Assembly: GCA_016931225.1 (NCBI GenBank)
Contig: JAFGFE010000036.1
Location: forward strand, 1-63,648
DNA length: 63,648 bases
Source of the DNA: Candidatus Zymogenaceae bacterium
Lineage (GTDB): Bacteria > Desulfobacterota > Zymogenia > Zymogenales > Zymogenaceae
Direction of reading: 5' to 3'
Shown here: positions 27,282 through 35,294 of the stretch, in pieces
Position numbering within the stretch: position 1 is the first letter of the stretch
Layout: every line of letters begins with the position of its first letter
Notes under the pieces: model-generated
The model's input: only the letters and a program-made list of their open reading frames with translations
The model's database searches: none
Told to the model about the DNA's origin: nothing
Translations under genes and position numbers: made by a program

Positions 27282-27638
27282 TGGTGGAGGCGGCGGGAAT
27301 CGAACCCGCGTCCGAAGATCTTCACCCGGGGCGTCTACATGCTTATTCGCCGTTTAATACCACGTTTCGACTCCCCGGCGAAAGGGAGTGCCGAAACGGG
27401 CGCCTGTATGGTTTTCGTCCAATCCCTACAGGCATCGGGATCGGCTTATCCCACATTGTAACGCCCAGACTGCCCCCGGTGGGAACGGAAACAGCGGACG
27501 CTGGCCGATATTACGCGGCCAGGGCGTAATCGTAGTTGTCTGCGATTATCTTTATTCCCACCATGATTAACGGGTAGGTGAGGCTCCCCGACATGCAGCA
27601 CCGAGATCAATTACCCCCGTCGAACCCAAATCGCCCCC
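27282..27638 (-). ncRNA. ssrA: transfer-messenger RNA
   Basis: A 357-base tmRNA. The 5' end GGGGGCGATTTGGGTTCGAC and the 3' end CGCCTCCACCA form the tRNA-like acceptor stem with an encoded CCA and a T arm GGTTCGATTCC. The tag frame is at 27511-27543, read leftward from a GCA resume codon: ADNYDYALAA then TAA. It rescues stalled ribosomes together with SmpB, encoded 1 kb upstream on the same strand. A hairpin terminator lies just downstream. A damaged second copy of its 3' end is at 24957-25065. Confidence 0.95.
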
Positions 27639-34543: not shown

Positions 34544-34993
34544 TCACACCCCGGAAGAACCGAAGCCTCCCTCACCCCGGTCCGTCTCGGGAAGATCGTC
34601 CGTCTCCTGGAACTCCGCCCGGGATACCGGCGCGGCGATCAGCTGGGCGATGCGGTCGCCGTTTTTGACTACGAAGGGTTCCTTTCCCTGGTTGATGAGA
34701 ATGATCTTGATTTCGCCCCGGTAGTCGCTGTCGATGGTGCCGGGACTGTTCAAAATGGTGACGCCGTGCTTCAGGGCGAGGCCGCTTCGGGGCCGCACCT
34801 GGCACTCGTATCCGAATGGGACGGCCAAAGCGATTCCGGTGGGCACCGCCGCCCACTCACCCGGCCCCAGCGTCATCTCCTCTGTAAGATGGGCGGAAAT
34901 ATCCGCGCCGGCGGCGCCTGGGCTGATGTATCTCGGAAGGGGACCGGCATATCCCTCTTTTCTCTTGAGCAAGATTTTGATTACATTATTCAT
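34544..34993 (-). CDS. dut: dUTP diphosphatase
   Basis: A 149-residue trimeric dUTPase with all five motifs: [46 protein letters not shown] and the C-terminal [10 protein letters not shown] that closes over the active site. It hydrolyses dUTP to dUMP, keeping uracil out of DNA and feeding dTMP synthesis. The start faces the spacer holding the two putative small-RNA units. The first 11-bp-phased repeat begins 16 bases from its start codon, so the same regulator could affect dut. Confidence 0.95.
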
Positions 34994-35008: not shown

Positions 35009-35036
35009 TTTAATGCTGATTTAATGCGGTATTAAT
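35009..35036 (+). promoter_or_regulatory. three TTTAAT-like hexamers at 11-bp spacing (site 1)
   Basis: TTTAAT at 35009, TTTAAT at 35020 and ATTAAT at 35031, exactly one helical turn apart. Direct hexamer repeats with 11-bp period are the binding pattern of PhoB/OmpR-type response regulators (known for PhoB and Bacillus PhoP). A TATTAT box follows at 35047. The regulator is unknown. Confidence 0.5.
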
Positions 35037-35052
35037 ACTTTATGGCTATTAT

Positions 35053-35116
35053 ATAAACATAAAACAAGTTACCTCCTGAATCGGAAACCTCTCTTGCGGG
35101 TTTCCATTTTTTTTGC
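35053..35116 (+). ncRNA. putative small RNA 1
   Basis: Downstream of site 1, this unit holds GTTACCTCCT (35068-35077) and ends in the terminator stem GGAAACC (35083-35089) / GGTTTCC (35099-35105) with an eight-T run (35107-35114). No gene lies upstream on the plus strand that would need this terminator. ACCTCCT is complementary to Shine-Dalgarno sequences. The 5' end is a guess. Confidence 0.45.
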
Positions 35117-35138
35117 CGATATCACCCTATTAGAAATA

Positions 35139-35166
35139 TTTAATTTCCATTTAAGGTCTTTTTAAT
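35139..35166 (+). promoter_or_regulatory. three TTTAAT-like hexamers at 11-bp spacing (site 2)
   Basis: TTTAAT at 35139, TTTAAG at 35150 and TTTAAT at 35161, the same arrangement as site 1, 130 bases upstream. A GATAAT box lies at 35183-35188. The identical period in both sites argues that they bind the same regulator. Confidence 0.5.
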
Positions 35167-35189
35167 AGAGGAATGATACAAAGATAATA

Positions 35190-35251
35190 CCTACCAAGTT
35201 TATACGTTACCTTCTTCAAGGAAAACATTTTCTGTTTTCCTTTTTTTTTGT
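35190..35251 (+). ncRNA. putative small RNA 2
   Basis: Paralogous layout to unit 1: GTTACCTTCT (35206-35215), then the stem GGAAAAC (35220-35226) / GTTTTCC (35234-35240) and a nine-T run (35241-35249). No open frame of useful length is present. The 5' end is a guess. Confidence 0.45.
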
Positions 35252-35264
35252 CCGAATACCGATT

Positions 35265-35294
35265 GCGGGGAAGCCGGCTTGCCGGCTTCCCCGC
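35265..35294. terminator. strong hairpin at the end of the rnf-nfn operon
   Basis: GCGGGGAAGCCGGC pairs perfectly with GCCGGCTTCCCCGC across two bases. It lies about 70 bases beyond the nfnB stop and could end leftward transcription; the T-rich TCTTGTTT is on its right, so rightward termination is also possible. Confidence 0.6.

Follow-up and report, generated by a model that had tools for sequence, protein, structure and literature searches.

The 372-bp AT-rich gap between dut and the nfn-rnf operon of this Candidatus Zymogenaceae bacterium houses two plus-strand units. In the window (the whole stretch of DNA analysed, 63,648 nucleotides), the units have as their divergent neighbour the dUTPase gene dut (34544–34993, minus strand), and the nfn-rnf operon (from 35366 upward, minus strand) is convergent to them. 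Upstream of the units there is no plus-strand gene, in agreement with the first-pass annotation, which had noted that nothing there calls for termination: dut is on the minus strand and nfn-rnf runs toward the units. A reading of the units as attenuators was rejected, as the plus strand has no downstream gene. Just beyond unit 2 lies a 13-bp palindromic hairpin (GCGGGGAAGCCGGC/GCCGGCTTCCCCGC, 35265–35294, assigned to no strand) that is probably not part of the units and may terminate the convergent nfn-rnf transcript. Elsewhere, the window carries a tmRNA gene (27282–27638, minus strand) with the tag ADNYDYALAA.

Predicted operator arrays and promoters

Each unit begins with a predicted operator made of three hexamers. 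In unit 1 it reads TTTAAT-N5-TTTAAT-N5-ATTAAT (35009–35036, plus strand; hexamers at 35009, 35020, and 35031), as seen directly in the sequence and backed by shuffling and by homologues; in unit 2 it reads TTTAAT-N5-TTTAAG-N5-TTTAAT (35139–35166, plus strand; hexamers at 35139, 35150, and 35161), as seen in the sequence and backed by shuffling. All the hexamers fit WTTAAK, and the period is 11 bp in both units; the other periods from 8 to 15 yielded no triple. Within the window, the 372-bp gap is the only place with triple WTTAAK arrays at 11 bp, and it holds two. When the gap was dinucleotide-shuffled 20,000 times, 2 of the shuffled sequences held one array and none held two; paired triple-hexamer arrays in a single gap are far beyond chance. 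Across the genome, TTTAAT-N5-TTTAAK is confined to the two units and, on contig C6, a simple 11-bp tandem repeat (L027 7354–7381, the same as G000 C6:92353–92380; TTTAATCTAAT). This last array was rejected as a period-11 repeat that mimics an operator and lacks the promoter-sRNA layout, the anti-Shine-Dalgarno core, and the terminator. It sits in a mobile-looking region with an integrase-like gene nearby.

The predicted −10 element of unit 1 is TATTAT (35047–35052, plus strand), 10 bp past the third hexamer, a spacing that recurs in homologues. That of unit 2 is TACAAA (35177–35182, plus strand), at the same distance as in homologues; it is a weak match, which counts against the explanation preferred below. 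Under the rule that transcription starts 7 bases after the −10 (PMC3091779), the RNAs are predicted to start at about 35059 in unit 1 and about 35189 in unit 2.

Predicted small RNAs

From promoter to terminator, the predicted small RNA of unit 1 spans about 56 nt (35059–35114, plus strand) and that of unit 2 about 61 nt (35189–35249, plus strand); the proposed length of about 60 nt fits the start 7 bases after the −10. Unit 1 carries the anti-Shine-Dalgarno core GTTACCTCCT (35068–35077, plus strand) and unit 2 the anti-Shine-Dalgarno-like core GTTACCTTCT (35206–35215, plus strand). Both fit GTTACCTYCT, and the twins differ by a single C/T. The predicted intrinsic terminator of unit 1 (35083–35114, plus strand) has its hairpin at 35083–35105, with an 8-pair stem followed by T8, and that of unit 2 (35218–35249, plus strand) has its hairpin at 35218–35242, with a 10-pair stem followed by T9. 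On re-reading the sequence, the hexamer positions, 11-bp spacing, GTTACCTYCT motif, and T8 and T9 runs given in the first-pass annotation proved correct to the base; the hairpins it described are present, with stems of 8 and 10 pairs rather than the 7 it had counted.

In the predicted folds (z = −3.85 for unit 2), the terminator stem is the only stem in each unit, and the 5′ half of both RNAs, with the stretch complementary to the Shine-Dalgarno sequence, is unpaired. Searches with Rfam covariance models gave no match near the gathering score in the window region and none in the homologous units. Both units have the features of trans-acting small RNAs (a promoter and terminator of their own, assigned by sequence only, an intergenic position, and conservation) and are very probably small-RNA genes. 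Since they are diverged but still recognisable copies of each other, it is likely that they arose by tandem duplication.

Conservation in other genomes

A search of 395 genomes of the same phylum with a hexamer/anti-Shine-Dalgarno pattern gave about as many matches as its reversed-pattern control, and the pattern alone is therefore no evidence. Two of the matches (G001, G354) also had features that the pattern did not specify: a third in-phase hexamer, a −10 at 10 bp, and a terminator. In the first, Candidatus Zymogenaceae bacterium Zod_maxbin.0311, the unit reads TTTAATACTGGTTTAAGACTGTTTTAAT-N10-TATAAA, then ATTACCTCCTTTAT, a hairpin, and T8; it is divergent from dut and convergent to rnfE, the same position and orientation as in the window. 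The second, Proteobacteria bacterium CS1-C027, belongs to another family and has the module at two loci. The stretch TACCTCCT of the unit 1 core also occurs in these two genomes. Adding the terminator to the pattern led to three genomes of a further family (f8), and a looser form to four more. All seven have the triple array, an invariant CTCTTTCCTCCT core, and a long terminator, and six of the seven have TATA(C/G)T at 10 bp. In the f8 terminator, 94% of cells pair and both sides have changed at 4 of 12 pairs, while slid controls gave 24–43%; these compensatory changes are supportive of the terminator, not conclusive, as they come from seven related sequences. The 5′ half with the anti-Shine-Dalgarno core was predicted to be unpaired in all homologues folded.

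The three TTTAAT-like hexamers at 11 bp, the 10-bp distance, the −10, the unstructured CCTYCT leader, and the terminator are thus shown, at the level of sequence, to form one conserved module. The first-pass annotation had held that its reading would fail if the hexamer spacing and hairpin were not conserved in relatives; both are kept in G001, G354, and the seven f8 genomes, and conservation of the whole module strongly supports its proposal of small-RNA genes behind an OmpR/PhoB-type operator. In the relative G002 the interval from gltA to dut contains no unit, which was counted against the preferred explanation. A plain DNA similarity search with the unit in 59 relatives returned mostly short, chance-level matches, and a pattern that fixed the two halves of the unit returned none. 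Pattern matches in G207, G075, G188, G058, and G032 were dismissed for want of the −10/anti-Shine-Dalgarno/terminator layout, as were most matches in a wider contig search (Flavobacterium, Paludibacteraceae, Rhodobacteraceae, L048).

Some further units were observed along the way. The second unit of CS1-C027 (C234:10681; L098 5682, plus strand) has a triple array, N10, TATATT, ATTTACCTCTTTTC, a strong hairpin, and T8, giving this genome two such predicted RNAs as well, but at separate loci. Outside the phylum, a csRNA-like unit is present in three Moorella species (L045 7605–7736, minus strand; L050 3933–4064, plus strand; L051 2027–2162, plus strand). Its array, TTTAAT-N5-TTTAAA-N5-CTTAAT-N5-TATAAC-N10-TATTAT, varies slightly from species to species; after it come GACCTCCTT and a CCCGG/CCGGG hairpin plus a T run. 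The unit lies upstream of tig-clpP-clpX, and a c-di-GMP-I riboswitch and a tRNA come after it in L045.

A candidate regulator beside htrA

Only two genes of the genome encode an OmpR-type DNA-binding domain (Trans_reg_C), one on contig C26 and one on contig C14. The former is part of an operon of the order ndk-rlmN-RR-HK-htrA (G000 contig C26; RR, response regulator; HK, sensor kinase). A similar triple array is found in the gap between the kinase gene and htrA in three of the four Zymogenaceae: TTTAAT/TTTAAT/ATTAAT-N10-GATAAT in G003 (0 of 4000 shuffles), ATTAAG/TTTAAC/TCTAAT in the window genome (P = 0.00075), and TATAAT/TTTAAT/ACTAAT-N10-GATAAT in G002 (P = 0.0095). The htrA promoter of G001 has the last hexamer and the −10 only (P = 0.135), though the hexamers of the G001 small-RNA promoter are perfect, and this was counted against the assignment. 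By NCBIfam models the kinase scores above cut-off as a member of the heavy-metal-sensor subfamily, and the protease falls in the Do/HtrA family; the best model for the regulator is TIGR01387 (CztR/SilR/CopR), with a score just under cut-off. In a comparison confined to the recognition helix, its NVIDVYISYLRNKI resembles VVEVYVSKVRKKL of CiaR. Because the array lies between its kinase gene and htrA, the C26 regulator is the leading candidate to drive the small-RNA units, and the earlier suggestion of a response regulator as driver has in this way acquired a specific, if indirectly supported, candidate.

An unlikely alternative is that the same small RNAs are driven by the other OmpR-type regulator, that of contig C14, or by one outside the family. 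In f8, two arrays (G373 C117, G191 C52) adjoin an RR-HK pair that is paralogous to the C26 type and lies beside ArnT-like glycosyltransferase genes, and the C14 regulator is near such genes too; the recognition helices are moreover alike among the candidate regulators. The closest f8 orthologue of the C26-type response regulator, a neighbour of pil genes, has no array seen beside it, and both f8 results were counted against the C26 regulator. Against this alternative, a 14-kb region surrounding the C14 regulator contained no array at the threshold used, while three of the four Zymogenaceae have one in front of htrA in the C26-type operon. As to the f8 arrays themselves (C117:18619, L071, and C52:20939, L070), each is a TTTAAT-type triple that precedes a gene for an ArnT-like glycosyltransferase, and the one in G373 is directly behind a sensor kinase gene. 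This suggests that ArnT-like glycosyltransferase genes are in a related f8 regulon.

Comparison with known small RNAs

The closest parallel is with the CiaR-dependent csRNAs (Ccn) of streptococci, which come from strong promoters and were predicted through TTTAAG-N5-TTTAAG, a 10-bp distance, TATAAT, and a terminator (PMC3091779). Shared with the units are several similar short RNAs with promoters of 11-bp-phased TTTAA-type direct repeats (PMC3091779), the 10 bp from last hexamer to −10 (seen at 35047, 35177, and in homologues), an intergenic location with an intrinsic terminator shortly downstream in both units, and an unpaired stretch complementary to the Shine-Dalgarno sequence. Expression of streptococcal htrA and of the csRNAs is CiaR-dependent (PMC4507080); here, htrA may hold a similar place in a two-component regulon, given the array in front of it in three of the four Zymogenaceae. 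Several features differ. The csRNA repeat is NTTAAG-N5-TTTAAG with an invariant final G, whereas five of the six hexamers here end in T; csRNAs have two repeats and two stem-loops with the Shine-Dalgarno-complementary stretch between them, against three repeats and one stem-loop here. The window genome is of a different phylum from the streptococcal hosts, and its candidate regulator is nearest to the CztR/SilR/CopR model. Because the final G and the stem-loops do not match and the regulator is at most a possible CiaR orthologue, the units are best seen as csRNA analogues, not members, that may work in a similar manner.

LhrC1-5 of Listeria are multicopy small RNAs controlled by LisRK and induced by cell-envelope stress, in which a CU-rich motif blocks the Shine-Dalgarno site (PMC4132741). 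They too are response-regulator-dependent siblings with a blocking motif, as is predicted here, but are 111–114 nt long with three redundant CU-rich motifs, in contrast to about 56–61 nt and one motif. As in OmpR/PhoB-family operators, the hexamers of the predicted operators are head to tail at 11 bp and end in the −35 region; their sequence and triple arrangement differ. No description of such a circuit in Deltaproteobacteria was found in the limited set of open-access papers searched.

Proposed mechanism and alternatives

It is rather probable that the locus encodes twin small RNAs, switched on by an envelope-stress-type OmpR-family regulator beside htrA, that block selected Shine-Dalgarno sites. 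Upon stress, the phosphorylated C26 regulator would occupy the hexamers head to tail and activate transcription, yielding two RNAs, about 56 and about 61 nt long, whose UUACCUYCU would pair with selected mRNAs at their Shine-Dalgarno sites and so prevent initiation; the same regulator would raise the HtrA protease. Having two units would give a higher dose and possibly differing target preference, and that the one-base C/T difference gives the twins different targets is speculation. By analogy with the csRNAs, the bacterium probably turns down selected genes under envelope stress with both RNAs. Masking of Shine-Dalgarno sites by the predicted RNAs is plausible, with precedents in other small RNAs (PMC3091779; PMC4132741). 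Duplex energies with the htrA and response regulator leaders did not discriminate such pairing from generic Shine-Dalgarno pairing and are no evidence for targets; anti-Shine-Dalgarno seeds have too many matching sites.

The RNAs might instead act broadly, by imitating the tail of 16S rRNA in competition for strong Shine-Dalgarno sites or as sponges that take up another RNA or a protein; this appears improbable. The generic bacterial 16S tail is ATCACCTCCTTTCT. The G001 core ATTACCTCCTTTAT equals 12 of its 14 bases, while the window units match 9 and 8 and f8 matches 5, all with respect to a generic sequence that may not be the host's. Against broad action, downstream of the core the window units no longer follow the tail, as selective pairing predicts, and the known precedents target selected mRNAs (PMC4507080; PMC4132741). 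Least probable is that no functional RNA is made, the hairpins serving only to end transcription and the hexamers acting as bent DNA or as an operator with some other purpose: the nfn-rnf operon ends here and requires a terminator, and phased AT-rich tracts can bend DNA, but the T runs serve the plus strand only, where no gene ends, the separate palindrome at 35265–35294 would fit the minus-strand operon, and the anti-Shine-Dalgarno core between promoter and terminator is kept across three families together with the 10-bp distance to the −10.

Implications

Beyond the first-pass annotation, the analysis adds a concrete regulator candidate for the twin small RNAs and a small-RNA module that crosses families. 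The response-regulator-driven siblings with anti-Shine-Dalgarno motifs described in the literature consulted come from streptococci and Listeria (PMC3091779; PMC4507080; PMC4132741). It is a tentative idea, on balance doubtful, that a CiaRH-like circuit (an OmpR-type regulator, a TTTAA-N5 array, HtrA, and several anti-Shine-Dalgarno small RNAs) constitutes a widespread unnamed class of small RNAs in this phylum, perhaps extending to Moorella, through convergence or very old common descent. The module also provides a simple rule for finding such small RNAs in the genomes of unculturable bacteria: a triple TTAA array, 10 bp, a −10, CCTYCT, and a terminator. A circuit of the same design in an uncultured proteobacterial-type lineage, alike even in its spacings of 11 and 10 bp and in the pairing with htrA, would mean that stress regulators repeatedly recruit RNAs that block Shine-Dalgarno sites.
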